NCBI GenBank assembly: GCA_020073385.1
Contig: JAIQFH010000026.1
Location: 1-64,000 of the forward strand
Source: Terriglobia bacterium
GTDB lineage: Bacteria; Acidobacteriota; Terriglobia; Terriglobales; Acidobacteriaceae
Reading direction: 5' to 3'
DNA: 64,000 nucleotides
Shown here: positions 1,696 to 30,845 of the stretch, piece by piece
Layout: each line of letters opens with the position of its first letter
How positions within the stretch are numbered: position 1 is the first letter of the stretch
The notes under the pieces: model-generated
The model's input: the letters and a program-made list of their open reading frames with translations, nothing else
What the model was told of the DNA's origin: nothing
The model's database searches: none
Program-made: the position numbers and the translations under genes

Positions 1696-2727
1696 ATGAA
1701 CTACGACGCAATTCTGGTTGTCTCGTTTGGCGGACCTGAGGGTCACGACGACGTCATTCCGTTCCTCGAGAACGTGCTCCGCGGACGCAACGTTCCGCGC
1801 GAGCGCATGCTCGCCGTTGCCGAGCATTACTACCATTTCGACGGCAAAAGCCCGATTAATCAGCAGACGCGGGAATTGATTGCTGCGCTCAAAGACGAAC
1901 TCGCGCAGCATGGACCGACGCTGCCCGTCTATTGGGGAAATCGCAATTGGCATCCGATGCTCGCTGACACCTTGAGGCAGATGAAGAGTGATGGCGTGAG
2001 GCGCGCGCTCGCGTTTGTGACTTCCGCATATAGTTCCTACTCCGGTTGTCGCCAATATCGCGAAGACATCGCCCGCGCCCAAGCGGAAATCGGCGAAGGC
2101 ACGCCGCAGATCGATAAACTCCGCGTCTTCTTCAACCATCCCGGATTTCTCGAAGCCACCGAAGACCGGCTCAAAGAAGCGCTGGTGCGGATTCCGTCCA
2201 ATGCTCGACAGAATGTGCAGATCGTCTACGTCGCGCACAGCATTCCCATGTCGATGGCCAACACCTCCGATTACGTGAAGCAACTGGAAGAAGTGCGGCG
2301 ACTCGCATCGCAAGCAATCGAGATCAGCAACGACGCTCTCGTTTATCAGAGCCGCAGCGGCGCTCCCGGACAACCGTGGCTCGAGCCCGACATCCTCGAC
2401 TATCTGCGCGAGGTGAAGGAAAAGAATCTCGCGAGCGCGGTCGTCGTCGCTCCCATCAGCTTCATCTCCGATCACATGGAAGTACTCTACGACCTCGACA
2501 TTGAAGCCAGGCACTTGTGCGACGAGCTCTCGTTGCCAATGGCGCTAGCAAAGACGGTTGGCGTGCATCCGAAGTTCATCGCGATGATTCGGGAGTTGAT
2601 CCTGGAGAGGACGGAAGGAGTCGAACGTCGAGCTTTGGGACCGTTAGGTCCGCGCCAAGACGTCTGCGCCGAAGACTGCTGCCCTGCGCCGCAGCGTCCC
2701 GTGCGGCCGCAAGCTGCCCAAAGTTAA
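1696..2727 (+). CDS. hemH: Ferrochelatase
   Basis: Inserts ferrous iron into protoporphyrin IX or, in the coproporphyrin-dependent route, coproporphyrin III, near the end of haem synthesis. The 343-residue length fits the family. The catalytic His lies in AHSIP (H181) and the metal-handling acidic residue in SDHMEVLYDLD (E262). The early YHFDGKSPINQQT motif is typical. I start at ATG 1696 rather than the in-frame TTG at 1684, because GGAAG sits closer to a usable distance, though the site is weak. The C-terminus ends in a Cys cluster (C324, C328, C329) that could in principle hold iron or an Fe-S cluster; this is inference. It converges with the next gene and their stop codons overlap. Confidence 0.92.
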   Translation: MNYDAILVVSFGGPEGHDDVIPFLENVLRGRNVPRERMLAVAEHYYHFDGKSPINQQTRELIAALKDELAQHGPTLPVYWGNRNWHPMLADTLRQMKSDGVRRALAFVTSAYSSYSGCRQYREDIARAQAEIGEGTPQIDKLRVFFNHPGFLEATEDRLKEALVRIPSNARQNVQIVYVAHSIPMSMANTSDYVKQLEEVRRLASQAIEISNDALVYQSRSGAPGQPWLEPDILDYLREVKEKNLASAVVVAPISFISDHMEVLYDLDIEARHLCDELSLPMALAKTVGVHPKFIAMIRELILERTEGVERRALGPLGPRQDVCAEDCCPAPQRPVRPQAAQS

Positions 2728-3395
2728 TTGGATGAGTGCGCCGTCGGCGTCTTCGGACGTTCGTAATCCGTTGCCTTCGGGCTTCCCGCCACCTGATGCA
2801 TCGTGTCGAGAATCGTGTTGATCACCGACTCGTTGCCGACCGCAGTGTTCATCATCATGTGATAGAGCGATCGCGTCGGCCAATCGGCGTTGAAGTAGTG
2901 CTTCACATACGCCATGCGTCCGCGATCTACGGTGTCGACCATTTCCTCGGCTTCTGCTTCCGAGTGCCCATCAGCTATCGTCCGGCGAATCTTCTCCGCC
3001 CGCGGCGCATAGAGAAATACGTGAAACGCGTCAGGATGTTCCCGCAGGAAAAAAGGCGCTCCGCGCCCGACGACCACCGCATTTCCTTCCCGCCCGATGC
3101 GATCCATGATGTCCTGCATCATCGCCATCATGCGATCGGTATCGAAAATCTGATTGCCCAGGTGAGTGCTGCGCTCGTAGCTTCCGCGCCAGAAAACCTT
3201 CGCCAGGCGATGCAGTGGACTGTCCATACGCTCGTCGCAGCGCTTCACCGCTGAAGGATCCACTTTCGCGATCCGCGCAATCTCTTCTGTCAGCAGATGA
3301 TCCCAGAGCTTCCAACCCAACCGCTCTGCTAAGTGGGTTGCAATCGAAGCTGCACCGCAACCGAATTCACGCTCGATGGTGACGAGGCGAAACAT
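2724..3395 (-). CDS. Cytidylate-kinase-like family protein
   Basis: A 223-residue protein of the cytidylate-kinase-like P-loop family. The start VTIEREFGCGAASIATHLAE matches the family's opening, where a glycine-rich loop takes the place of a strict Walker A (no GK[ST] is visible). AVVVGRGAPFFLRE is a second conserved segment, and the lid region carries EKIRRTIADGHSEAEAEE. The substrate is unknown; family members are usually called by similarity to CMP kinase, but the altered P-loop makes that activity uncertain. Its last codon overlaps the end of hemH on the other strand by 4 bases. Its start lies 328 bp past the stop of hemH, so the two are convergent and not an operon. Confidence 0.8.
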   Translation of the reverse strand: MFRLVTIEREFGCGAASIATHLAERLGWKLWDHLLTEEIARIAKVDPSAVKRCDERMDSPLHRLAKVFWRGSYERSTHLGNQIFDTDRMMAMMQDIMDRIGREGNAVVVGRGAPFFLREHPDAFHVFLYAPRAEKIRRTIADGHSEAEAEEMVDTVDRGRMAYVKHYFNADWPTRSLYHMMMNTAVGNESVINTILDTMHQVAGSPKATDYERPKTPTAHSSN

Positions 3396-3402
3396 AGGGG
3401 TT

Positions 3403-4989
3403 CTAGTGTACCGCCATTCCTCCGCCAGGTTTCGACTTCTTGATCAGGAACACCGCCGGAATCATACATAGAATGGACACACCCAGGAACCAAAAACAAT
3501 CAATATAAGACAGCATAACGGCCTGCCGCTGCACTGTACCCTGAATCAACGCGTAGGCCTGCTGTGAAGCCTCCGCGGCGCTAGCGCCATGCGCCTGCAT
3601 GGCTTTTGTCGCTCCCTGAAGCATCGCCTGCAAGGAAGGATTCGAAGCGCTCAGGTTGCCCGCGAGATCGGTTAAATGCTTTTGCGTCCGACGGTCAAGC
3701 ATTGTCGTGACCACAGAAATTCCCACACTGCCGCCGATGTTACGCGCGAGATTCATCAGCCCGGAAGCAGCGTTGTTCTTGTCCCGCGGCAGAAACGCAT
3801 AGGCAGCCGTATTAATCGGGACGAACAAGAAAGCCATGCCGACGGCTTGAAGCACGCGCGCTCCCGCGACGGTTCGGAAGTCGATATCGAGATCGAACTT
3901 CGTCATGTGAAACAACGAGTACGACAGGACGATGAGACCGAACATCAGAAGCCAACGCGGTGTGTACCGCGAGAGCAAGAATCCCACCAGCGGCAGCAGC
4001 AGGATGATCGCAAATCCACCGGGCATCAGAGCCAATCCCGCTTGCTGTGCCGTATATCCCAACAGCGTCTGCGAAAACAGCGGCAGCAGTAGCGTGCTGC
4101 CCAGCAAGGCGAATCCGAGCATGAACATCAGCAGATTCGAGATGCCGAAGGTGCGGTCACGGAACAGATGCAGATCGATAATCGGATCCTTCTGCTTCCA
4201 CTCCCAGAAGATGACGAAGATCAGAGACAATGCCGCGATCAGCGAGAGAATCACAATGAAGTTCGACTCAAACCAATCTTCACGCTGGCCCTTGTCGAGG
4301 ACTACCTGAAGTGTGCCGAGCCCAAGCGCGACGAATCCCAGTCCGATGTAATCGATGTGGGTTTCGCTCCGCTTGCGGCGCCTGAAGTAAGGTGGATCCT
4401 GAATCAGCCGGGAGGTCAGCAGGATAGACAGAATCCCGACGGGAATATTGATGAAGAAAATCCAGCGCCAGGTGAAATTGTCGGTGATCCATCCCCCGAG
4501 AGTGGGACCGATCGCCGGCGCGGTAACCACCGCCATGCCGTAAACGGCGAATGCCATGCCTCGCTTTGCCGGCGGAAAAGTGTCGGCGAGGATTGCTTGT
4601 TCGCTGGGCTGTAATCCTCCGCCGCCAATACCCTGAAGAACGCGGCAGATGATCAAGACAGCCAGATTCGGCGCGAGGCCGCACAAGAAGGAGCTGATGG
4701 TGAACAGGGCCACGCAACCCATGTAGAAGTTCTTGCGCCCGACGATCGAAGACAACCATCCGCTGAGCGGGAGAACGATGGCATTAGAGACAAGGTAAGA
4801 AGTGAGAACCCAGGTACTTTCATCTTGCCCGGCGGAAAGGCCACCCGCGATATGCGGCAGCGCAACGTTGGCAATGGAAGTGTCGAGCACTTCCATGAAC
4901 GTTGCCAGTGTTACCGCCAGAGCGATGATCCACGGGTTTACTGCGGGACGCCAGGAATCAGACTTGTCAAACGTCGCCGCAGCACTCAT
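3403..4989 (-). CDS. emrB: DHA2-family MFS drug efflux permease (EmrB-like)
   Basis: A 528-residue inner-membrane transporter with about 14 hydrophobic segments, the pattern of the DHA2 drug:proton antiporter family. STWVLTSYLVSNAIVLP and the following GWLSSIVGRK are the conserved first motifs; VVTAPAIGPTLGGWI is motif C of drug antiporters. It should export hydrophobic compounds through the adaptor and outer-membrane channel encoded just upstream in transcription order. The start codon ATG overlaps the stop of the adaptor gene (ATGA, 4986-4989), which points to translational coupling. The substrate cannot be told from sequence. Confidence 0.9.
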   Translation of the reverse strand: MSAAATFDKSDSWRPAVNPWIIALAVTLATFMEVLDTSIANVALPHIAGGLSAGQDESTWVLTSYLVSNAIVLPLSGWLSSIVGRKNFYMGCVALFTISSFLCGLAPNLAVLIICRVLQGIGGGGLQPSEQAILADTFPPAKRGMAFAVYGMAVVTAPAIGPTLGGWITDNFTWRWIFFINIPVGILSILLTSRLIQDPPYFRRRKRSETHIDYIGLGFVALGLGTLQVVLDKGQREDWFESNFIVILSLIAALSLIFVIFWEWKQKDPIIDLHLFRDRTFGISNLLMFMLGFALLGSTLLLPLFSQTLLGYTAQQAGLALMPGGFAIILLLPLVGFLLSRYTPRWLLMFGLIVLSYSLFHMTKFDLDIDFRTVAGARVLQAVGMAFLFVPINTAAYAFLPRDKNNAASGLMNLARNIGGSVGISVVTTMLDRRTQKHLTDLAGNLSASNPSLQAMLQGATKAMQAHGASAAEASQQAYALIQGTVQRQAVMLSYIDCFWFLGVSILCMIPAVFLIKKSKPGGGMAVH

Positions 4990-6272
4990 TCACGAATCCA
5001 CACCTTGGGAGTTACAGATAAGCCGGGACGCAGTTGCTGATTGCGATTGGATCCAGGGTCAAGAACGATCTTGACCGGAACGCGCTGCACCACCTTGACG
5101 TAGTTTCCGGTCGCGTTCTCCGGAGGCAACAGGCTGAAGCGCGCGCCACTGGCGCCGGCGATGCTATCCACTTTGCCGTTGTACTTGTTGCCATTCGCAT
5201 CGACCTCGATCGTGACCCGCTGACCCGGCTTCATATCGCGCAACTGCGTTTCTTTGAAATTAGCGGTGATCCAGATGTCGTCGAGATTGATGACCTTCAT
5301 CAATTCCTGGCCGGGAGCGACGTTCTGGCCGACTTCCACGGTACGGTTGCTGACCACGCCGCTGACCGGGGCGACGATCTTGGTGTATTGCAGGTTCAAT
5401 TCAGCCTGATCGAGATTCGCCTTCATGCGCTCGACTTGGGCCACGGCGGACTGAGCTTTCGCCTGCGAGACCTGCATTTGCTTCGGCGCCGTATTGGCAT
5501 AACGCCAATTGGCTTCCGCCTGCACCAGCCTGCCCTTTGCCTGCGTGACTTGTTGATCGGCGGCATCGGCAGTAGCGCGGGCAGCTTCGACACCAGCCGC
5601 GCCAGCCTGAGCCGCGGCCGTTGCCTGATCGTACTGTTGTTGCGAAATCTCCTGCTTGTCCACGAGTTGTTTGTAGCGCACAAGGTCGTTCTGCGCCTTG
5701 ACGTTGTTCGCCTCGGCTTGTTGCAGTTGCGCTTTGGCTGCCTGGAACTGCTGCTGGGCTGCCTGAATGCCGGCACGGGCGCTGGCTACATCGGCCTCGC
5801 TAGCGGAGATCTGGCTGTTGGTGTTGACGGATGTGATCGGGACCGTAACTCCCGCTGCGGTAGCTGCTGCCTGGGCATCGGCAAAATCCGCCTTCGCCCG
5901 CTCGTAGGCCACCTGGTAGTCGGTTGGATCGATCTCGACCAGCACTGTACCAGCCTGGACGGCTTGATTGTCCTGCACGTTGAGCTTGATCACGTGGCCG
6001 GAAATTCGAGCACTGACGGAGTTAATATGCCCGTCGACCTGCGCATCATCGGTAGATTCGTAACTGGTGAAGTAGCGGTAGACGAAGAATCCAACGACAA
6101 GGAGAACTACCAGTGCAATCAGAATCGCAATGCGAAAGCCGGGACTCTGAGTGCGCGATGGACGAGTATGAAAGTCCCGCTCGGTCGCCGGCAGGGGCTT
6201 ATTGCTGGACTCCGGTCTTTCGGCTACAGATGGATTCGCTGTAGGGGTGGCAGCCTGCGTCGATTGCTCCAT
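4986..6272 (-). CDS. emrA: EmrA-like membrane fusion protein
   Basis: A 428-residue periplasmic adaptor. A cytoplasmic N-terminus rich in Thr/Pro is followed by one membrane segment near residues 47-67, a biotinyl-lipoyl half motif (VDGHINSVSARISGHVIKL), and a long alpha-hairpin rich in Ala and Gln. A second lipoyl half follows (APVSGVVSNRTVEVGQNVAPG), then a beta-barrel. This is the normal HlyD/EmrA layout. It should link the MFS pump to the outer-membrane channel. It is the middle gene of a three-gene minus-strand operon, 5 bases after the channel gene and overlapping the pump gene by 4. Confidence 0.9.
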   Translation of the reverse strand: MEQSTQAATPTANPSVAERPESSNKPLPATERDFHTRPSRTQSPGFRIAILIALVVLLVVGFFVYRYFTSYESTDDAQVDGHINSVSARISGHVIKLNVQDNQAVQAGTVLVEIDPTDYQVAYERAKADFADAQAAATAAGVTVPITSVNTNSQISASEADVASARAGIQAAQQQFQAAKAQLQQAEANNVKAQNDLVRYKQLVDKQEISQQQYDQATAAAQAGAAGVEAARATADAADQQVTQAKGRLVQAEANWRYANTAPKQMQVSQAKAQSAVAQVERMKANLDQAELNLQYTKIVAPVSGVVSNRTVEVGQNVAPGQELMKVINLDDIWITANFKETQLRDMKPGQRVTIEVDANGNKYNGKVDSIAGASGARFSLLPPENATGNYVKVVQRVPVKIVLDPGSNRNQQLRPGLSVTPKVWIRE

Positions 6273-6277
6273 ACGCT

Positions 6278-7717
6278 TTATTGATTGCCTTTCAGATATC
6301 GCCTTACACCTTGCTCGGCATCGCCGATGGCGTAAGCCAATTCGACCTTCGCTAGATTATGAGCATAAAGACTTTGAATAAAGCTTTCGTGCGCGCCGGC
6401 AACTGCTTCCTGGGCCTGCACGACTTCCAGATTGTCGGCGACTCCGGCGGTGAAGCGATCCTGCGACTGAGCCAGGGCCTGTTCGGCGAGTTCGACTGAA
6501 CTGCGGGCGACTTCAACCTGCTCGGCCGCGGCATTGAGATCGAGCAAGGCCGAACGGACTTCGTAGTCGATCCGGCCGCGCAGATCGCCTAACTGCGAAC
6601 GAGCCTGCTTGAGTTGGGCATCAGCTACAAGGATATCGCCATGGACTTTATTGCCTGCGAAAACCGGAATATTGATGCCGCCCATGACCTGCCAGGTGCC
6701 GTTGGAATTCGCCGGGTTGACGCCGATATCACCGAAATTCGCATCCAGGTCAATTGAGGGATATCGTCCCGCGACCGCTGCTTTCCTGCTGTGTTCGGCG
6801 CTCTGCAACTGTGCCAAGGCGGCCTGATAGTCGGCACGTCCGTTATACGCACGCTGCAAATAGGTTTCGAGGGGAAGAGGAGTCAGCGCCTGGTATGGAG
6901 CCTTTTCGGTGAGAACGAATTGCTGTCCCAGCGGCAGTCCGATAATGCGGGCTACGCTCAAAGTGGATTTCGCCAGCTCATTGCGTGCCACGATGAGCTG
7001 CTGTTGCCGGGTCTGGAATTCAACCTGCGAACGCAGAGCGTCAATGGCCGGCGTCAGACCGGCTTTGTGCTGATCCGCGGCTTTCTGATAGAGAGCCTGA
7101 GCACTTGTGACCTGAGCTTCAGCGGTCTCAACGCGGGCCGCAGCCGCAATGGCTTGCAGGTATGAGTTCCCCACGGCAAGCACTACCAGTTCACGCGCAT
7201 CCTTGAAACTGAGTTGAGCAGCTTTGAGCGTTTGGGATGCGGCTCGTTCTTTTTCCAGGGATCGGTAATTGAAGATAGTTTGCGCGGCATTGGCTCGGAG
7301 ATCGAAGTAATTGAAGGGCCCAATAACTCGGGGGACCGGTGCGTGAAATACACTGGCCTTCAGCCCGAGCGCCGTGAGGCTCTGGGTCTGGGCATCCTCG
7401 GCGGCACGAACGGAGATGTTTGGCAATAATTCAGCCAACTGCTGCCAGCGCTGGCCGCGAGCGGCCTCGGACTGATCCCCGGCCAGCAGCAGGCCTAAGT
7501 TATTGCGTAAGCCCCGGTCGATGGCGTCCTTGAAATCAATCTGAAGGACTTCCGGTGTAGCCGTGCCCTCTGGGGCGCTCCCTTGAAATGGACTTTGAGA
7601 GCCAGGAAGAGAAACTGATGGTGTCCCGCCAGTTTGTGAGAACAGCGCAGACGAAACGGTAAAGAATGATATGAAACCAAGAACCACGGTGGGGAAGACT
7701 TTCAATGAGCGTCGCAT
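6278..7717 (-). CDS. TolC-family outer membrane efflux protein
   Basis: A 479-residue outer-membrane factor, first gene of the MFS efflux operon. I chose the ATG at 7717 because it opens directly onto a signal peptide (MRRSLKVFPTVVLGFISFF, cleavage expected soon after); the frame is open further upstream but that part has no recognisable domain. Two OEP-type repeats follow, with the helix pattern AARGQRWQQLAELLPNISVR in the first and AKVELAYAIGDAEQ near the end of the second. It should trimerise into a channel that receives substrate from the EmrA-like adaptor. Confidence 0.87.
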   Translation of the reverse strand: MRRSLKVFPTVVLGFISFFTVSSALFSQTGGTPSVSLPGSQSPFQGSAPEGTATPEVLQIDFKDAIDRGLRNNLGLLLAGDQSEAARGQRWQQLAELLPNISVRAAEDAQTQSLTALGLKASVFHAPVPRVIGPFNYFDLRANAAQTIFNYRSLEKERAASQTLKAAQLSFKDARELVVLAVGNSYLQAIAAAARVETAEAQVTSAQALYQKAADQHKAGLTPAIDALRSQVEFQTRQQQLIVARNELAKSTLSVARIIGLPLGQQFVLTEKAPYQALTPLPLETYLQRAYNGRADYQAALAQLQSAEHSRKAAVAGRYPSIDLDANFGDIGVNPANSNGTWQVMGGINIPVFAGNKVHGDILVADAQLKQARSQLGDLRGRIDYEVRSALLDLNAAAEQVEVARSSVELAEQALAQSQDRFTAGVADNLEVVQAQEAVAGAHESFIQSLYAHNLAKVELAYAIGDAEQGVRRYLKGNQ

Positions 7718-7800
7718 TCTTGATCGGGAACGTTCAGGCACCTCGACAGGGGCTGAATCTTCCTTTCCGTCTATAGCATAACTCGTTAGCTTTGATTCTT

Positions 7801-7821
7801 TTGCGCGCAATTGCGATGCAA
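7801..7821. promoter_or_regulatory. Tandem dyads in the efflux/tonB divergent region
   Basis: Two abutting palindromes, TTGCGCGCAA (7801-7810) and TTGCGATGCAA (7811-7821), sit between the efflux operon (starting leftward at 7717) and the TonB-like gene (starting rightward at 7944). Short paired dyads in a divergent promoter region are the usual look of a repressor operator. No regulator gene is adjacent, so the binding protein is unknown. The assignment is inference. Confidence 0.35.
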
Positions 7822-7943
7822 ACGAAATCAGGTCTGTGTTCTGGCCTCGACCGAAACCGGGCAACTTAGGTGCAATGCCTTCAGTACTCTGCCAGTAACC
7901 ACTCAGTCCCGATAACCTAGGTACGTAAGGGAGAGTCGGAGTC

Positions 7944-8279
7944 ATGCGCCGTGATGTCCTGTTTTTGGCCTTAATACTCGCGTTCTGGTCCAACCTGGCG
8001 CAAGCGCAAACCACGACCGTGTCCTCTAGTTCCGAGCGAAAGATCTCAGCCCGGGTGGTGCCGGTCTATCCGGAACTGGCGAAAAAGATGCATATCCACG
8101 GAGTTGTGCGCATGGAAGTTATCGTGCGGCCCAACGGGAGCGTTAAATCCAGTCGCGTGCTGGGCGGAAACCCGGTGCTCGTGGAGGCTGCGCAGGACGC
8201 GGTGAGCAAGTGGAAGTTTGAGCCCGGGCAGAGCGAGAGCACGGAAATCGTGCAACTCGGATTCGAAGGCGGCCGGTAA
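7944..8279 (+). CDS. Stand-alone TonB C-terminal domain protein
   Basis: A 111-residue exported protein. A signal peptide (about residues 1-21, ending ...LAQAQ) is followed directly by a TonB C-terminal domain: VVPVYPELAKKMHIHGVV, then VIVRPNGSVKSSRVLGGNPV and the DAVSKWKFEP closing motif. A full TonB has an N-terminal membrane anchor and a long proline-rich spacer; both are absent. It therefore probably is a soluble periplasmic domain and not an energy transducer driven by ExbBD. Proteins like this are frequent in Acidobacteriota and their role is unknown. GGGAGA at 7929-7934 is a fair ribosome site. Confidence 0.78.
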   Translation: MRRDVLFLALILAFWSNLAQAQTTTVSSSSERKISARVVPVYPELAKKMHIHGVVRMEVIVRPNGSVKSSRVLGGNPVLVEAAQDAVSKWKFEPGQSESTEIVQLGFEGGR

Positions 8280-9206: not shown

Positions 9207-11288
9207 ATGGTTGCCACGGAACAGGTATTGGCGACAGGCCAGCAGCTAGACACGCTTTGCATTAATACAATCCGAACCCTCGCCATCGATGCAGTGCAGC
9301 AGGCGAATTCAGGGCACCCCGGCGCTCCCATGGCGCTGGCGCCGGTGGCTTATTGTTTGTGGCAGCAATTTCTGCGCTACGATCCGGCTGACCCCACATG
9401 GTTAAACCGAGATCGATTCGTGCTCTCCAACGGGCACGCTTCCATGTTGCTCTATGCCATGTTGCATCTGGCTGAAGTGCGGCAGGTGGATGATAAAGGA
9501 CACGTCACTAATGAGCTGTCGGTTCCGATGGAGGAGATCAAGCGCTTCCGTCAGTTGGGCAGCCGAACTCCCGGGCACCCCGAATCTCACATAACTTCCG
9601 GAGTCGAGACCACCACTGGGCCGCTTGGCCAGGGAGTGGGAAACAGCCTCGGCATGGCGATCGCGGGCAAGTGGCAGGCAGCGAATTTCAACCGTCCCGG
9701 TTTAGAGATTTTCGATTTCAACGTTTATGCGATGTGCTCGGACGGCGATCTGATGGAAGGGGTTGGCAGCGAGGCGGCTTCGCTGGCGGCGCATCTGAAG
9801 CTGTCGAACCTCTGCTGGATTTATGACAACAATCACATCACGCTGGACGGTCCGGCGAGTTGGTCATTCAGCGAGGACGTCGCGACTCGATTCATCGGAT
9901 ACGGCTGGAACGTCACGCGCGTGGGTGATGGCAACGACCTCGATATGCTGGCGCGCGCCTTCGAGGTTTTCCAGAAGACGACCGATCGACCGACGTTGAT
10001 CATCGTTGACACCCATATCGGCTACGGCTCTCCTCACAAGCAAGACACCAATGCTGCGCATGGAGAACCTCTGGGCGAGGAAGAAGTAAAACTGGTGAAG
10101 AGGTTTTATCACTGGCCGGAGGATGCGAAGTTTCTCGTGCCTGATGGAGTACGGGAGCACTTCCGCGAAGGCATTGGCATGCGTGGTGCCGAGTTGCATG
10201 GCAAGTGGTCAAAGACGTTTGCGGAGTACTCGCAGAAGTATCCGGAATTAGCGGAGCAGCTCAGTCTGATGCAGCACCACGAGTTGCCATCGGGATGGGA
10301 CAAGAATCTGCCTACATTTCCGGCGGATGCGAAGGGAATCGCAACGCGCGAAAGTTCCGGGAAGGTACTCAATGCTGTAGCCCAGAACATTCCCTGGATG
10401 ATCGGGGGATCGGCTGATCTGGCAACCTCGAACAAGACGACGCTGAAATTCCCAGGGACGGGGGATTTCGAGGCTGGAAGCTACGGCGGGCGCAATCTTC
10501 ACTTCGGAGTTCGCGAACACGCGATGGGCGCGAGCGTGAACGGGATGACGATTTCCGGCCTCCGGGCGTTCGGAGCGACATTCTTCAACTTCAGCGACTA
10601 CATGCGGGCGAGCATCCGGCTGGCAGCGCTGATGCAACTGCCGGCTCTTTTCATTTTCACGCATGACTCCATTGGAGTTGGCGAAGATGGGCCGACGCAT
10701 CAGCCGATCGAACAGCTGGCGTCCTTGCGGGCGATGCCGAATTTGATCGTTCTGCGTCCGGGCGACGCGAACGAAGTGACCGAGGCTTGGAGGATTATTG
10801 CGAAACAACAGCACTCTCCAGTGGCGCTGGTGCTGACGCGGCAGAACTTGCCTACGCTGGATCGGTCAAAATATGCGCCCGCTTCGGGAGTAGCGAAGGG
10901 TGCTTATATGCTCGCCGATGCTGAAGGTGGAAAGCCACAAGTCATTCTATTGGGAACGGGCAGCGAAGTGTCGCTGTGCATCGATGCGTACGAGAAACTC
11001 AAGGCAGATGGGATTAAGGCGCGCGTGGTCAGCATGCCATCGTGGGAGATCTTTGAGCGGCAGGACGCGGCTTACAAGGAGAGCGTGCTGCCATCCGATG
11101 TGACGGCGCGGGTTTCCGTCGAAATGGCCGCGACGTTCGGCTGGGAACGATACACGGGCAGCAAGGGGCGAAACATCGGCATGCGACGGTTCGGAGCTTC
11201 GGCGCCGTTAAAGGATCTGCTCAAGTACTTCGGTTTTACGGTCGACAAAGTGGTGGAAGAGGCGCGCGCCGCGATTGCCGACAAGTAG
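9207..11288 (+). CDS. tkt: Transketolase
   Basis: Moves two-carbon units between sugar phosphates in the non-oxidative pentose phosphate pathway, using thiamine diphosphate and Mg2+. At 693 residues it is full length. The N-terminal GHPGAP motif, the thiamine diphosphate motif starting at CSDGDLMEGVGSEAA and ending at YDNN, and the cofactor-activating Glu in FGVREHAMG are all present. GGAGG at 9191-9195 supports ATG 9207; the frame is open upstream but adds no domain. It is the first gene of a seven-gene plus-strand operon for glucose 6-phosphate metabolism. Confidence 0.95.
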   Translation: MVATEQVLATGQQLDTLCINTIRTLAIDAVQQANSGHPGAPMALAPVAYCLWQQFLRYDPADPTWLNRDRFVLSNGHASMLLYAMLHLAEVRQVDDKGHVTNELSVPMEEIKRFRQLGSRTPGHPESHITSGVETTTGPLGQGVGNSLGMAIAGKWQAANFNRPGLEIFDFNVYAMCSDGDLMEGVGSEAASLAAHLKLSNLCWIYDNNHITLDGPASWSFSEDVATRFIGYGWNVTRVGDGNDLDMLARAFEVFQKTTDRPTLIIVDTHIGYGSPHKQDTNAAHGEPLGEEEVKLVKRFYHWPEDAKFLVPDGVREHFREGIGMRGAELHGKWSKTFAEYSQKYPELAEQLSLMQHHELPSGWDKNLPTFPADAKGIATRESSGKVLNAVAQNIPWMIGGSADLATSNKTTLKFPGTGDFEAGSYGGRNLHFGVREHAMGASVNGMTISGLRAFGATFFNFSDYMRASIRLAALMQLPALFIFTHDSIGVGEDGPTHQPIEQLASLRAMPNLIVLRPGDANEVTEAWRIIAKQQHSPVALVLTRQNLPTLDRSKYAPASGVAKGAYMLADAEGGKPQVILLGTGSEVSLCIDAYEKLKADGIKARVVSMPSWEIFERQDAAYKESVLPSDVTARVSVEMAATFGWERYTGSKGRNIGMRRFGASAPLKDLLKYFGFTVDKVVEEARAAIADK

Positions 11289-18844: not shown

Positions 18845-19249
18845 CTATCCTCGCCAGTCGCAGATTTCCTTCAGGCCTTTGCCTCTGGCGTGCTCGAAGA
18901 GGCGGACTCGATGGCGGGAGTGCTCAAACTCATGGATGTCGGCCCAGACCTCGGCTTGCCATCCGGTGTCATGGGCGGCGGATTCCCCGCAGGTGGCGCA
19001 CCGAGTGTGAAGCGTAACCTGAGCGCTTTCCAGCATCTCAGAAACGGCTCCGGGCAGTTCGATGAAAATGCAGCGGACCTCCTCGATTTCCTCGTTCGCA
19101 CCCAGAATGTGCTCATAGCGCAGCAAGTAACCGAAACCGAGCTTCCGCGCCTCAACCTCCGCCTCGGCACGGGTATGGAAGGGGCCATACTCGGCTCGCA
19201 GCTGTTCGGTGGAGTCGCACGCCATCCAGAAGATTTCTTTGTAGGCCAT
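18845..19249 (-). CDS. Small conserved protein with putative metal site
   Basis: A 134-residue protein I do not recognise by function. It has no signal peptide or membrane segment. The second half holds TRCATCGES (C84, C87) and an unusual density of His (81, 93, 106, 110, 113, 120), which suggests a metal site, probably zinc. The N-terminal part (FHTRAEAEVEARKLGFGYLL) looks like a small alpha/beta fold. No close neighbour on its strand is an obvious partner; the mini-LuxR pair lies about 300 bases upstream on the same strand. The coding call rests on length, composition and a plausible protein. Confidence 0.65.
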   Translation of the reverse strand: MAYKEIFWMACDSTEQLRAEYGPFHTRAEAEVEARKLGFGYLLRYEHILGANEEIEEVRCIFIELPGAVSEMLESAQVTLHTRCATCGESAAHDTGWQAEVWADIHEFEHSRHRVRLFEHARGKGLKEICDWRG

Positions 19250-19557: not shown

Positions 19558-19818
19558 TCAGTCCGCTCCCACCGCCTGGGGATACGCGGCGGGCGCCCCG
19601 TCAGCTTCTGGCCAGTCCTTTCCACCATGGCTGGCGACGTACATGGCCAATTCCAGGCGACTCCACACGCCGAGCTTGTCAAAGGTGCTTCGTAAATGAT
19701 TCTTGATAACCTGTTCGCTGGTGCCGACTATGCGGCCGATCTCGCGGTTCGTAAGCCCTTCCCAGACCAGGATGGCGATTTGAATCTCTTTGGGGGTGAG
19801 GCGCTCGCGGGGGGTCAT
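19558..19818 (-). CDS. Mini-LuxR regulator, B type (pair 1)
   Basis: An 86-residue protein that is essentially only a LuxR/GerE-type helix-turn-helix: LTPKEIQIAILVWEGLTNRE, then EQVIKNHLRSTFDKLGVWSR. There is no receiver or ligand domain. I start at ATG 19818, which follows a GAAGAGG site and overlaps the stop of the A-type gene by 4 bases (ATGA). This indicates coupled translation and a likely 1:1 partner. The B-type signature is IKNHLR..FDKLGVW.R.ELA, shared with the protein at 29888. The C-terminal 20 residues are Ala/Pro-rich. Confidence 0.85.
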   Translation of the reverse strand: MTPRERLTPKEIQIAILVWEGLTNREIGRIVGTSEQVIKNHLRSTFDKLGVWSRLELAMYVASHGGKDWPEADGAPAAYPQAVGAD

Positions 19819-20039
19819 GATTGCGCCTCTTCCTTGCTGAACATGGCAATGGCAAGCTTCACGCGTTTCCGCCCTTCGCGGATGCCGGCACGCAGAAACA
19901 ATGTTCGCAAGTGCTGCTTCACAGTTCGTGGGCTGATGTTGAGCTGACCGGCAATTTCTTTGTTGCTGCAACCCTGGACCAGCAGGTTCAGCACTTGCTG
20001 GTCACGCGGGGTAACTTTCACAGATTCCAGATTGATCAT
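19815..20039 (-). CDS. Mini-LuxR regulator, A type (pair 1)
   Basis: A 74-residue stand-alone LuxR/GerE-type DNA-binding protein, close to GerE of Bacillus in size. TPRDQQVLNLLVQGCSNKEI and SPRTVKQHLRTLFLRAGI are the scaffold and recognition helices. AGGAGGG lies 9 bases before the ATG. It is first in a two-gene minus-strand unit with the B-type gene, and is divergent from an RND efflux operon across about 350 bases. The A-type signature is the tail R.KRVKLA..., shared with the protein at 30043. It may regulate itself or the efflux genes; that is inference. Confidence 0.87.
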   Translation of the reverse strand: MINLESVKVTPRDQQVLNLLVQGCSNKEIAGQLNISPRTVKQHLRTLFLRAGIREGRKRVKLAIAMFSKEEAQS

Positions 20040-20058: not shown

Positions 20059-20161
20059 GACTTAAGAACGAACTCGCCTTTCTTTAAGCAAGAGTTTCGC
20101 CATTTCTTCGACCTAAGAATACGCCAAGACCTAAGTACTTCGGTGCATGCCAGTTAGGCAT
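20059..20161. promoter_or_regulatory. Repeated GACCTAAG boxes upstream of the mini-LuxR pair
   Basis: GACCTAAG occurs at 20110-20117 and again at 20128-20135 (18 bases apart), with a near copy GACTTAAG at 20059-20066 and a dyad ATGCC-AGTTA-GGCAT at 20147-20161. All lie in the divergent region between the LuxR pair and the efflux operon starting at 20397. They are candidates for operator sites. I do not find the same boxes before the second LuxR pair. Confidence 0.3.
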
Positions 20162-26651: not shown

Positions 26652-28430
26652 GTGACAGCGCCGGTGGAATACCGAACTGTGTCTGAGGAGAAGCACAAAC
26701 CAGTTCATGACGAGCAGACGCTCGGAAAGCTGCTGGAAGCCGCCTACGTGCTCCAGGAGCACAACCGGGAGATGCTGCGACTGGAGTTGCGCCTCGGCCA
26801 GAAGCGGGATCAAGTAGTAGCTGAGGACCGCGCCTACTCACCTGAGGGTCCATCTCCGCAAGGAAAATCCCCTGAGACTTCGGCCCCGTCGGACAACACG
26901 TCGACATTGGCAAGAATCGTCGAGACCCAGCATCAAATCCAGTTTCGCCGATTGGAATTCGAGAGTGCGCTGAAACTGGTGGCCGACAGAGTCCGTGAGA
27001 TGACCAACGCTACCGGTGCGGCGATCAGCATTATTGAGCGCAAGAGCGTACGCTATCGCGCAGTCGCCGGTCGCAGCACCCCAAGCTCAGGATCGATCGT
27101 GCCTCTCGACAAGGCGATGTTCGCTCCGTGCCTAAGAACCGGAGAGGTTTTCCGCTGCAAAAATGCGAGCGCAGAGTCCCTACTGGACACGGATGAGTGC
27201 AAGCGCCGCGGCATTCAATCGCTCATTGCGGTGCCCGTGTTTCACGATGGTGGCGTCGCCGGAGGGCTGGAACTTTACTACTCGTCTCGCGATGCATTCA
27301 CCGAACAGAATGTTCACACCTGCCAATTGATGGCTGGCCTGGTGGCGGAAGCTCTGGTGCGAGAAGAGGAAGCGGCGTGGAAGAAATCACTGGCGAGTGA
27401 GCGTGCCGCGATGCTGGAGGCTCTTGAGAAACTGCAGCCGAATCTGGCGGCACTGGTCGAAAGACCTGGTGCGAAGAGCACTTCCTCCCCGGAAAAAGTG
27501 CCCACGGCTGTGCCTCATCACTCGTGTCGTAAGTGCGGGCATCAACTCGTGGCTGAAGAGCAGTTCTGCGGACAATGCGGCACGCCGCGCGCTGGCGACT
27601 ACGAAGCTCCCGATATGCAAAGTAAGGTGGCTTCCATGTGGCACATGCAGGAGTCGCAGAAGAAGGGGGTTAGCTCGGAGGCCGCGAAGAACAGCTGGGA
27701 AAAACCTGCCAGGAGACTCGATGCTTTCCAGCCGGAATCGTCGCTTGCGCGTTCTCTCGAGCAGCAAATTCCAGAACTCTTCACCTCTTCTGATTTAGAT
27801 CTCCCAGACGAGGGTGGCGAGCAAGTCGAAAATACGGCACCAGTCATGATGCAGGAGATCGCGAGCGACAAATACGAAGATCCTTCCGTCGAGGCAGATG
27901 AGTCTTCTACCGAATCGCTGGACGGCTCGCAAGCCCTGACAAAGCCCGTGCCAAAGCCTCCGGCAGACTGGAGTTCCGCCGCTTCCGCGCGCGCATTTCT
28001 GGAGCAGTTGGCCTCCAGCAAGCGAACGGGGCGTCTGCTGCACTTCTGGAATGCACATCGCGGAGACATCTATCTGGGAATTGCTGTCATCCTGGTCGCC
28101 TGCGTGGTCCGGTGGGGATTATGGTCGAATCATCCTGTCAAAGCTACAGCAACACCAGCAGCGGCGACCGCGACTCATCGCAAACCCGCTCCCGATCCGG
28201 GTTTATCGTTCTTTGATCGAGTGCTGATTCAGCTTGGCCTGGCCGAGGCGCCCGAACCTCCGCCAGACAAGGGGAATCCTGGAGTTCAGGTCTGGGTAGA
28301 TCTGCGCACCGCGCTCTACTACTGCCCGGGAACCGACCTGTATGGCAAAACTCCCCAAGGAAAATTCACCACGCAACGCGAAGCACAACTCGACCAATTC
28401 GAGCCTGCATATCGCAAAGCCTGCAATTGA
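26652..28430 (+). CDS. GAF and zinc-ribbon membrane protein
   Basis: A 592-residue protein of unknown function. Residues 21-60 look like a coiled coil. Residues about 100-235 form a GAF domain (VREMTNATGAAISIIER; IAVPVFHDGGVAGGLELYY). A zinc ribbon follows with C292, C295, C306 and C309. An acidic low-complexity region leads to a single membrane segment at 473-490. The short outer part ends with YYCPGTDLYGKTPQGKF (556-572) and a final Cys. The GAF and zinc ribbon should be cytoplasmic and the tail outside. Start is GTG 26652. A second zinc-ribbon membrane protein follows 116 bases later. It may sense a small ligand or redox state; this is inference. Confidence 0.75.
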   Translation: MTAPVEYRTVSEEKHKPVHDEQTLGKLLEAAYVLQEHNREMLRLELRLGQKRDQVVAEDRAYSPEGPSPQGKSPETSAPSDNTSTLARIVETQHQIQFRRLEFESALKLVADRVREMTNATGAAISIIERKSVRYRAVAGRSTPSSGSIVPLDKAMFAPCLRTGEVFRCKNASAESLLDTDECKRRGIQSLIAVPVFHDGGVAGGLELYYSSRDAFTEQNVHTCQLMAGLVAEALVREEEAAWKKSLASERAAMLEALEKLQPNLAALVERPGAKSTSSPEKVPTAVPHHSCRKCGHQLVAEEQFCGQCGTPRAGDYEAPDMQSKVASMWHMQESQKKGVSSEAAKNSWEKPARRLDAFQPESSLARSLEQQIPELFTSSDLDLPDEGGEQVENTAPVMMQEIASDKYEDPSVEADESSTESLDGSQALTKPVPKPPADWSSAASARAFLEQLASSKRTGRLLHFWNAHRGDIYLGIAVILVACVVRWGLWSNHPVKATATPAAATATHRKPAPDPGLSFFDRVLIQLGLAEAPEPPPDKGNPGVQVWVDLRTALYYCPGTDLYGKTPQGKFTTQREAQLDQFEPAYRKACN

Positions 28431-28546
28431 ACCACCTTCCCCTCTGATATCACGTCATTTAGAATTGACAACCTCTGGGGATGATAGTGCAATCATACCT
28501 ACAAAATTCTGGCTGTTCGTCGAGTAAAGCTTGAGGAGAATGCCGA

Positions 28547-29803
28547 TTGGCTAGTTCCGCCGAACGTTTTGAGGATGAGCGCGCCTTACCCCGTCCCGAG
28601 CTCAATCCCCTGCTAAATCCCCTTTTGGCGGACAACATGGGACGTTGGGCCGAAGTCTACTTCACCAGTGCTCCCGAGAAACGCGAAGAGGCGGTTCTCG
28701 AATTGCTGCGTGAACTGGAGGCACGGAACTCAGATCGTGAAGTCCACACGGCGCCAGCGCAAACTGTACATGCCGTCACGACGGACGCGCCCTCTACGGC
28801 ATTTGAGAGCGCAACGACGGTCACGCACCCTCGCGATCTGCGACGTTGCGATTCCTGCGGCCACCACAACCCTCCCGGGCACCAGTTCTGCGGCATGTGT
28901 GGAGGACAGTTGGGCGGAACCGCGTCCGAGGACCCCAGGATGGACAGGACGCGCCATCTTCAGAATGCTGAAAACGAGCACTCCGAGGCTTCCGGTTACG
29001 CAGAATCCTATTCCCAATATCGGGAGCCAATCGCGCAAGAATCTCTCCCACCTGCGGAAGATCCTCGCAGAGACCCGTACGATTTGTCTCCGTTTCAGAG
29101 TCTACTGGAAAGGGAAAACGCAGAGGCGTCGGACTACGACGAGTCATCTGGCAGCCGATACCGCTCTTACATCGGGGGAATCGTCGCAATTCTGATTCTC
29201 GCGCTGGGTTACGCGGCTTGGACGAGTTCACGTAGTGATCAGACTGCGCAGGGAGCGCCCGCTCCCCCACCGCCTGCTGCGACGGAGACTTCTCCCGCCC
29301 CTGCGGCGAGTCCGAACGCAGCGGCCTCTGCACCAGCGAACCCGTCGAAAGCCGCCGCACAGCAACTAACTCCAACTGCGAACCGGACTACCGGACCGAC
29401 TACGCCGGCACCGGCAGAATCATCGAAGCAAAACGAAACCGCCACCCGTGGAACATACACGCCCGCCGCAACTATCACGCCGGGCTCGCAGCCCGCAGCG
29501 GACAACGTCGAACACCAAGGCTTGCAAGGGAATGGAACTGACGAGTTCGCGATGGCTCAGCGCTTTTTGCAGGGATCCAGCGGACAGGCACGCGACAGCG
29601 CAGAAGCGGCGAAGTGGTTATGGAAATCGATCGCCAAACACAACGGCCCGGCGATGCTGGAGTTGGCGGATCTATACCTCAAGGGGGATGGAGTCTCCAA
29701 GAACTGCGACCAAGCCCGCGTGCTGCTGGACTCCGCAGCACGACGAGGCACGGCCGGAGCCGGAGAAAGACTCCGTAACCTCCAGGCGTTTGGCTGCCAA
29801 TGA
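28547..29803 (+). CDS. Zinc-ribbon membrane protein with Sel1-like tail
   Basis: A 418-residue protein. Residues 31-58 (RWAEVYFTSAPEKREEAVLE) resemble the N-terminal helix of the PilZ protein at 8407. A zinc ribbon has C101, C104, C115 and C118. One membrane segment lies at about 208-225, then a long Pro/Ala/Thr-rich spacer. The C-terminus (about 330-418) has Sel1/TPR-like helices (SAEAAKWLWKSIAKHNGPAM; LADLYLKGDGV). The tail should be periplasmic and bind a protein partner. The start TTG 28547 is supported by GAGGAG at 28533-28538. Function is unknown. It shares its plan with the preceding gene. Confidence 0.75.
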   Translation: MASSAERFEDERALPRPELNPLLNPLLADNMGRWAEVYFTSAPEKREEAVLELLRELEARNSDREVHTAPAQTVHAVTTDAPSTAFESATTVTHPRDLRRCDSCGHHNPPGHQFCGMCGGQLGGTASEDPRMDRTRHLQNAENEHSEASGYAESYSQYREPIAQESLPPAEDPRRDPYDLSPFQSLLERENAEASDYDESSGSRYRSYIGGIVAILILALGYAAWTSSRSDQTAQGAPAPPPPAATETSPAPAASPNAAASAPANPSKAAAQQLTPTANRTTGPTTPAPAESSKQNETATRGTYTPAATITPGSQPAADNVEHQGLQGNGTDEFAMAQRFLQGSSGQARDSAEAAKWLWKSIAKHNGPAMLELADLYLKGDGVSKNCDQARVLLDSAARRGTAGAGERLRNLQAFGCQ

Positions 29804-29887: not shown

Positions 29888-30124
29888 CTACTGCATTAGG
29901 ATTGCTGCAGGACTGCGCCTCGACTCGTACCAAAGCGCGAGCTCGACTCGGTTCCACAGCCCAAGCTTGTCATAAATCACCCGCAGGTAATTCTTCACGA
30001 CATGCTCGGTGGTTCCGATGGCTTCGGCAACTTCCTTGTTCTTCAGGCCCTCGGCAACGAGCTGGATGACCCGATGTTCACGTTCACTGGGGATACGGTT
30101 CCCGTAGCGTCCACTTGCAGACAT
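29888..30124 (-). CDS. Mini-LuxR regulator, B type (pair 2)
   Basis: A 78-residue stand-alone LuxR/GerE-type DNA-binding protein. SEREHRVIQLVAEGLKNKEV and EHVVKNYLRVIYDKLGLWNR align with the B-type protein at 19558. A strong GGAGG lies 5 bases before ATG 30124, although that start is inside the A-type gene. The two genes overlap by 82 bases in different frames. It converges with the zinc-ribbon membrane protein gene ending at 29803. Confidence 0.85.
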   Translation of the reverse strand: MSASGRYGNRIPSEREHRVIQLVAEGLKNKEVAEAIGTTEHVVKNYLRVIYDKLGLWNRVELALWYESRRSPAAILMQ

Positions 30125-30333
30125 GCTTGCCTCCGGTATAACAGGGTCGCGAGTTTGACTCGCTTAATACCACCGGTGATTCCGAAACGGAGAAACAACC
30201 GGTTGAAATGAGCTTTCACAGTGCGCCGCGCCATCTTGAGTTGGCTGGCTATTTCGGCGTTGTCGCACCCTTGCAATAGCAGTTCGACGATCTGCTGTTC
30301 GCGCGGACCGAGCCGAACAGTCTGCTCCTTCAT
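30043..30333 (-). CDS. Mini-LuxR regulator, A type (pair 2)
   Basis: A 96-residue LuxR/GerE-type DNA-binding protein. GPREQQIVELLLQGCDNAEI and ARRTVKAHFNRLFLRFGI match the A-type protein at 19815, including the trailing KRVKLA. GGGAGG lies 5 bases before ATG 30333, which is why I reject a longer upstream frame. A C-terminal tail of about 28 residues beyond the helix-turn-helix overlaps the next gene; it is Ser/Val-rich and may be incidental. It is the first gene of a coupled A-B pair, as at 19558-20039. Confidence 0.85.
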   Translation of the reverse strand: MKEQTVRLGPREQQIVELLLQGCDNAEIASQLKMARRTVKAHFNRLFLRFGITGGIKRVKLATLLYRRQACLQVDATGTVSPVNVNIGSSSSLPRA

Positions 30334-30845
30334 CTCATCCTCCCTCTCGTGAAATTGCCTCACCCGACTGGGCGCACGGCTTGACTGTTTCCAGATTGCG
30401 TAGCATCCACGTTGCCATTTTGAGATGGAGAGGGCATTTTTGACCCGGAAACTCATTTTCCACAGACACTTGCAGAGGGCACCAGCAAATTCGCATTTCG
30501 GGACGGAAATCAGGTTCAAGAGGAAAAAGAGGTCCTCTTTTGCTCAACCAGGCCAAACCGCGCATGAATATTGGGCTCGACGACGTCGGCAGGAGACTAC
30601 AAGATCGTTTCAGCAGTCGACCGCGTGTCCGGGTATCACTCCGTTCCGATCTCCCGGAACAAGCGGCTTGGCAAAAAAAAACGCAAGGCTTACATCCAGA
30701 TTATGTCTTCAGGTGAATACCTTAGACGAAACTTCCCGGATACAGGGGAACGTCGGCACAAATTACACGATTGGCCCTAGCGCGCCGGTACTATACGGCG
30801 GAATTTCCGATTTCCACAGCAATAAATGATGTTTTCGAAGCTTTT
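30334..30845. other. Intergenic stretch with a perfect dyad
   Basis: About 500 bases between the second mini-LuxR pair and pilR. No convincing gene: the open frames on plus (from 30425 and 30571) lack a family match and a good ribosome site. It contains a dyad AAAAGAGG-T-CCTCTTTT at 30525-30541, which could be an operator or a weak two-way terminator. The promoter of the LuxR pair, read leftward, should lie near 30340-30420. The stretch is visibly richer in A and T than the flanking genes. Confidence 0.4.

Follow-up and report, generated by a model that had tools for sequence, protein, structure and literature searches.

Paired genes for single-domain LuxR-type proteins in a Terriglobia bacterium, with apparently nested and fused versions in relatives

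The two gene pairs, their kinship and their surroundings

In the window, i.e. the whole stretch of 64,000 nucleotides that was analysed, two pairs of short genes lie 10 kb apart on the minus strand. In each pair, a gene of type A precedes a gene of type B. The features of both pairs and of their closest surroundings are as follows:

30043..30333, minus strand: A2, 96 aa (30333 to 30043), single-domain LuxR/GerE protein, short form
29888..30124, minus strand: B2, 78 aa (30124 to 29888), single-domain LuxR/GerE protein
30043..30124, minus strand: overlap of A2 and B2, 82 bases read in two frames
30403..30417, minus strand: predicted sigma-54-like -24/-12 element TGGCAACGTGGATGC, upstream of A2
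19815..20039, minus strand: A1, 74 aa (20039 to 19815), paralogue of A2
19558..19818, minus strand: B1, 86 aa, start codon overlapping the stop of A1 (ATGA, 4 bases)
20088..20102, minus strand: predicted sigma-54-like element TGGCGAAACTCTTGC, upstream of A1
26652..29803, plus strand: a GAF/zinc-ribbon gene and a Sel1/zinc-ribbon gene, convergent with A2-B2

An earlier note on this DNA had described A2-B2 as a second pair, with A before B and an overlap of 82 bases, about 10 kb away from the first. Coordinates, strand, order and overlap proved exact, and A1-B1 was located at the expected distance. The strong Shine-Dalgarno sites ascribed to both genes of the second pair correspond to matches of 5 bases for A2 and 5 for B2; A1 has 6 bases and B1 has 4, so that the word strong suits three of the four genes. 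The start of B1 was set at the ATG at position 19818 because the matches of relatives begin there, in preference to the TTG further upstream that was given in the list of open reading frames (137 aa).

Each of the four proteins is barely more than one GerE helix-turn-helix, and all of them pass the gathering cut-off of the Pfam GerE model (PF00196; 53.3, 46.2, 44.0 and 47.2 bits, cut-off 23.5). Neither a receiver nor a kinase domain was detected in these proteins of 74-96 aa (Pfam, E 1e-3). They thus lack the N-terminal receiver by which two-component response regulators of the NarL/FixJ type are recognised, and the N-terminal autoinducer-binding domain of quorum-sensing LuxR proteins is likewise absent from all four (Pfam). 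The expression "two-component regulator", used in the earlier note, therefore suits the pair in the sense of two putative subunits and does not suit it in the sense of a receiver/kinase system. Among the 31 GerE matches of the 8.23-Mb genome, A2-B2 and A1-B1 are the sole mini pairs.

As for kinship, tblastn identity was 52% between A1 and A2 and 42-43% between B1 and B2, compared with 28-33% between A1 and B1 and no match at E 1e-3 between A2 and B2. The claim that the like-named proteins of the two pairs resemble each other more than A resembles B is borne out by these values. The main tree (117 of 166 rows, 78 columns, many open forks) supported A1+A2 with 100/99, A2 with 98/89, A1 with 94/86, B2 with 100/100 and B1 with 79/90; the B clade (99/94) also included, beside B2, two domains of longer proteins from the same genome (L025 and L028). 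One broken-looking B1 (G009) was kept in this tree and dropped from the clade tests, the codon-position entropy and the open-frame background described below.

It had been proposed that a tree grouping A1 with B1 and A2 with B2 would indicate separate local duplications. In constrained-tree tests (54 rows), A1+B1 as one clade was rejected (p-AU 0.008), and B1+B2 as one clade was not (p-AU 0.445). Since A1 and A2 form a clade and the union of A1 with B1 is rejected, separate local duplications (A1 from B1 and A2 from B2) are out under the model used; nothing was found in their favour, and we regard their probability as negligible. Judged by their sequences, A and B are different lineages. The further claim that the pair was duplicated as a unit is upheld on the side of A by the same two results; on the side of B, a common clade is allowed by the trees and unproven. 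Duplication of the whole pair fits the trees and is their simplest reading.

Promoters of the sigma-54 type carry the -24/-12 consensus TGGCN8TGC, in which GG and GC elements stand at a fixed spacing. This pattern precedes A2 in 94 of 99 loci, or 25 of 27 when each genus was represented by one locus, and A1 in 12 of 19, being missing in the other seven. It was present in 19 of 419 control ORFs and in 1.6-1.9% of shuffles (base composition alone preserved). The bare pattern is common in the window (23 found, 14 expected), and the evidence is therefore its conservation and not its presence. The gene for RpoN is present in the genome, and the elements before A2 and A1, which match the sigma-54 promoter pattern, are called sigma-54-like here. 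Beyond them, the upstream alignments of the two pairs, inspected by eye for a shared operator, have little in common.

In 25 of 27 genera, one or more of the displayed loci have a match to the GAF/zinc-ribbon and/or the Sel1/zinc-ribbon gene downstream of B2 (the loci of g1 and g28 were displayed in part). Our best guess is that one of these convergent genes represents a functional link of A2-B2. In the window, A2 is adjoined by genes for a sigma-54 activator (NtrC-like) and a PilS-like kinase; in the five further g1 loci that were displayed, A2 was not seen with such neighbours. Downstream of B1, tblastn matches labelled "NtrC" were obtained in 8 of 18 genera. A conserved NtrC-type activator beside A1-B1 was considered on this basis and discarded, as the label was overturned by Pfam, and no activator is named for this pair. 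In the three relatives tested (g42, g48 and g49), Pfam recognised these neighbours as lone receivers:

L073:6826-7290, L070:1103-1564 and L083:4814-5401: lone receiver-domain genes downstream of B1

An OmpR-type regulator and a histidine kinase were recognised by Pfam near A1-B1 in g48 and g49; in g42 alone, a sigma-54 activator was recognised upstream of A1. The solitary receiver gene after B1 possibly represents a split response regulator. Together with the GAF neighbour and an RND pump operon beside A1-B1, it is a candidate for the signal or the targets of the pairs. A 134-aa protein encoded at 18845-19249 of the window (minus strand), without a Pfam match at E 1e-3, recurs downstream of A1-B1 in many relatives.

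Distribution of the pairs and their fused and viral versions

In a sample of 60 genomes of the family, A1-type genes were present in 20 and A2-type genes also in 20; by hand count, both types were found in 16 genomes, A1 alone in 4, A2 alone in 4 and neither in 36. The two pairs share a contig in 11 of the 16 genomes, 3-14 kb apart, and are on separate contigs in 5. B1 lies directly downstream in 19 of the 20 A1 loci (the copy in G009 looks degenerate); the 20th locus is cut by the end of its contig, and B1 opens another contig of the same genome. Within the window's genus, A1 and B1 were both found in 40 of 45 genomes.

A survey of 398 family genomes (79 genera), supplemented with fetched regions, yielded 107 B2-type loci; one broken B2-like match with a single stop (G286:C17) was left out of the fetched loci. 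In 101 of the 107 loci, representing 27 genera, B2 is immediately preceded by A2, with the order unchanged. The remaining six comprise one locus with A2 cut by the contig end and five solo B2-like genes. The latter (L168, L169, L170, L175 and L176) belong to G045 (one), G037 (two) and G051 (two), and all three genomes also hold a full pair. A class-wide survey (399 genomes, 135 genera, E <= 1e-12) returned matches in 15 genomes of the own family and in two of another family, where the proteins were long LuxR proteins. Up to 14 candidates were scored per genome in this survey and in that of B2, and absences there are therefore not absolute. A scan with one genome per species returned 200 relatives. 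The 80 that were listed are all acidobacterial, 79 of them bearing Terriglobia-type names or plain Acidobacteria and one Blastocatellia, and many have contigs of the window's genus and the title Candidatus Sulfotelmatobacter.

In 4 of the 45 genomes of the window's genus, A1-type and B1-type domains are fused in single intact ORFs, six in number and 157-182 aa long:

G161 and G082 (one each), G307 and G382 (two each): fused A-B genes, intact ORFs

A broken relative of such a fusion is present in G376, and a viral contig (L295) encodes an A-B fusion of 145 aa. The pattern TGGCN8TGC precedes one of the six bacterial fusions and none of the four viral genes checked. The predicted structure of one fusion consists of two four-helix domains of high confidence, each a complete helix-turn-helix (pLDDT 81.9), whereas the placement of A relative to B is poorly defined (pTM 0.49). 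A fold search of the PDB with this model gave no match at E <= 0.001, and the good matches were to single domains (DosR, LiaR, VraR, NarL and GerE). One fused A-B gene, at 9574-10065 (minus strand) of L297, lies about 1.6 kb from an RND-pump-like operon (by eye) at 2191-7965, a neighbourhood that echoes the pump operon beside A1-B1 of the window.

Among viral sequences of IMG/VR, ten loci (L286-L295) with A-type genes were found: three with A followed by B (L287, L289 and L290, the last two with the same A and B), the fusion mentioned above, and six without a recognised B. PHROGs matches identify a gene for a major head protein on L287 and one for a primase-like protein on L292. In named phage records, weak matches only were obtained, in six Vibrio phage records. 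The solo B2-like genes, as well as the viral A genes without a recognised B, indicate that one partner can exist alone.

GerE and NarL domains are able to homodimerise. A and B might thus be independent homodimeric regulators which share an operon and overlap merely for translational coupling, as the occurrence of either partner alone (five solo B2-like genes, six viral loci) would permit. Against this stand the A-to-B order kept in 101 of 107 loci and the A-B fusions in 4 of 45 genomes of the genus and in a viral contig, and we hold this explanation to be rather unlikely. The earlier claim that A and B work together gains from the same order and from the natural fusions, which point indirectly to an interaction of the two proteins. 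A and B are probably subunits of a heterodimeric transcription factor of the NarL/GerE type, devoid of its own sensory domain and controlled through its own synthesis.

B2 and the longer A2 of relatives

A2 of the window is of the short form, its frame containing four stops within B2. The same is true of the window's genus, where A2 is short in 42 of 42 loci and ends, in 29 of these, 82 bases past the start of the B2 match. In relatives, the A2 frame is open through all of B2 in 22 of the 101 loci, belonging to 18 of the 27 genera; it ends 7-136 bases past the B2 stop, which gives an A2 of about 157-190 aa. A nested gene, i.e. an inner gene wholly within an outer frame with both under selection, can be recognised in the sequences of relatives, and not in the window.

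An open frame of this kind could arise as an artefact of codon bias in B2, with A2 ending early or being unimportant past its domain. The corresponding frame is indeed open in 49 of 613 windows of 77 codons taken from other genes, as it is in 1 of 18 B1 genes. Moreover, the open loci are related to each other, and their counts are therefore not independent: in a weak tree of 54 of the 101 loci, 5 changes between open and closed frames are needed, of which well-supported branches force only 1. However, when 2000 synonymous recodings of B2 were drawn from the local codon usage, 2.9 open frames were expected among the 101 loci, compared with the 22 seen; outside the heavily sampled genera g1, g27 and g28 (30 loci), 0.64 were expected and 22 seen.

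The end of the long A2 argues in the same direction. A tail resembling LESWEHSILxL is clear in 20 of the 22 open loci, degenerate in 2 (G014 and G005) and absent from 79 of 79 closed loci. When searched as the pattern [EAV]xW[ED]xx[IVLM][LM]x[LV] behind the B2 stop, it was found in the A2 frame of 18 of the 22 open loci and, in any of three frames, in 0 of the 79 closed ones. E, W and the final L are invariant in 19 motif rows, to which four genera contribute two rows each, and the codon-position entropy over these rows is 0.80/0.43/1.33, as in coding sequence.

In a further test, fourfold identity between genera was measured at B2 sites past the first 82-base zone, and the A2 core from the same set of genomes served as the control. 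In the 18 open genera, identity in B2 exceeded that in the A2 core by 0.122 (jackknife SE 0.031; 125 of 153 pairs), as opposed to 0.008 in the 10 closed genera (SE 0.021; 22 of 45 pairs). Such extra conservation of B2 in open genera only, together with the tail, its codon pattern and the excess of open frames, makes an artefact of codon bias improbable.

In most open loci the motif stands just behind the B2 stop, and it might instead belong to B2 by way of a frameshift or form a separate small gene. We judge this to be very improbable: the motif keeps to the A2 frame and was seen in no locus with that frame closed, and in two genomes (G076 and G108) it is encoded within the 3' end of B2 itself. 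As for a small gene, no start codon common to the loci precedes the motif (by eye), and ATG and ACG alternate in the tails. Thus, the open frame, the tail and the additional fourfold conservation confined to open genera indicate that B2 is nested in a longer A2, and in these loci the same DNA very likely codes twice. The tail is not essential everywhere, since it is absent from 79 of the 101 loci.

The model of A2 drew on 19 of the 22 long rows. In the AlphaFold2 prediction for the long A2 from G049, a good helix-turn-helix is followed by a tail predicted to be disordered from residue 76, and a helix of low confidence (148-158) covers the tail motif. Outside the above counts, a Terriglobia-like nested A2-B2 was present on a 3.8-kb contig titled Blastocatellia AA13 (L277), through either misbinning or transfer.

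Proposed working of the pair and its relation to known systems

In both paralogous pairs, the ribosome site of B lies inside A, the order is fixed from A to B, and the frames overlap. We propose that sigma-54 RNA polymerase with an activator transcribes the pair, and that ribosomes which finish or cross A would start B at the site inside A, leading to balanced amounts of both proteins. By analogy with GerE and NarL, A would pair with B via its last helix, and the dimer would bind an asymmetric DNA site. The long A2 tail may serve as a disordered linker which displays a C-terminal docking peptide. As the pair is kept side by side in some soil acidobacteria, nested in many relatives and fused in a few, a single two-part switch is probable.

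Taken as a whole, the nested arrangement would represent a two-subunit factor of which one subunit has come to be encoded within a 3' extension of the other subunit's gene. The same DNA would be selected in 18 genera for both B and a disordered arm of A carrying the docking peptide, and synthesis of B would be tied to translation of A. The arm would have been cut by an early stop in the window's genus, the subunits fused in a few genomes, and versions of the pair carried by viruses. We favour this joint reading with moderate confidence.

Heterodimers of LuxR-type proteins that integrate signals have a precedent in BldM-WhiI of Streptomyces, and an excerpt of PMC4125116 terms both proteins orphan, atypical response regulators. 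In comparison with the system described there, A and B are devoid of a receiver domain and their genes overlap, and the fusions and the adjacency point indirectly to a putative heterodimer. RcsB with RcsA, BglJ or GadE likewise forms LuxR-type heterodimers which integrate signals. The DNA-binding domains of NarL, DosR and LiaR (PDB 1je8, 1zlj and 4wt0) are like A and B, domain by domain, in fold and sequence, but in those proteins the domain is the C-terminal portion of a phosphorylated response regulator. GerE of B. subtilis (PDB 1fse) and PedR (NF052366, a model of 74 positions) share with A and B a single GerE domain of about 74 aa and the lack of a sensor; however, each is a single protein, whereas two unlike proteins are encoded here in a fixed gene pair. 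Scores against the PedR equivalog model were 27.0-38.6 bits, far below its curated cut-off of 120.

As for the nesting, the phage lysis genes Rz and Rz1 lie one within the other in different frames, and their products act together. They encode lysis proteins of phages, whereas A2 and B2 share one DNA-binding fold and reside in bacterial chromosomes. To our knowledge, bacteria rarely have fully nested genes on the same strand in which both frames show signs of selection. According to an excerpt of PMC3887535, long same-strand overlaps can come about when the upstream gene is elongated at its 3' end, and selection is not needed to explain them. The geometry described there is the same, in that the frame of the first gene runs on into the second; in contrast, the elongated A2 spans the entire B2 gene in 18 genera, and both frames bear signs of selection. 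Single-domain LuxR proteins are already known as well (PMC3466318, in excerpt). No description of the A-B pair was found in searches of open-licence literature. The novelty is the combination, as single-domain LuxR proteins, LuxR heterodimers and long overlaps were each known before.

Annotation that forbids long overlaps is expected to trim or drop one gene of the pair. To the study of regulation, the pair offers a minimal two-protein regulator of the LuxR type without a sensor, of which the fusions are natural single-chain versions. The dual-coding signal recurs in 18 genera and comes with built-in controls, namely the closed relatives, the A2 core and B1; because of these, the cost and the purpose of overprinting become testable.
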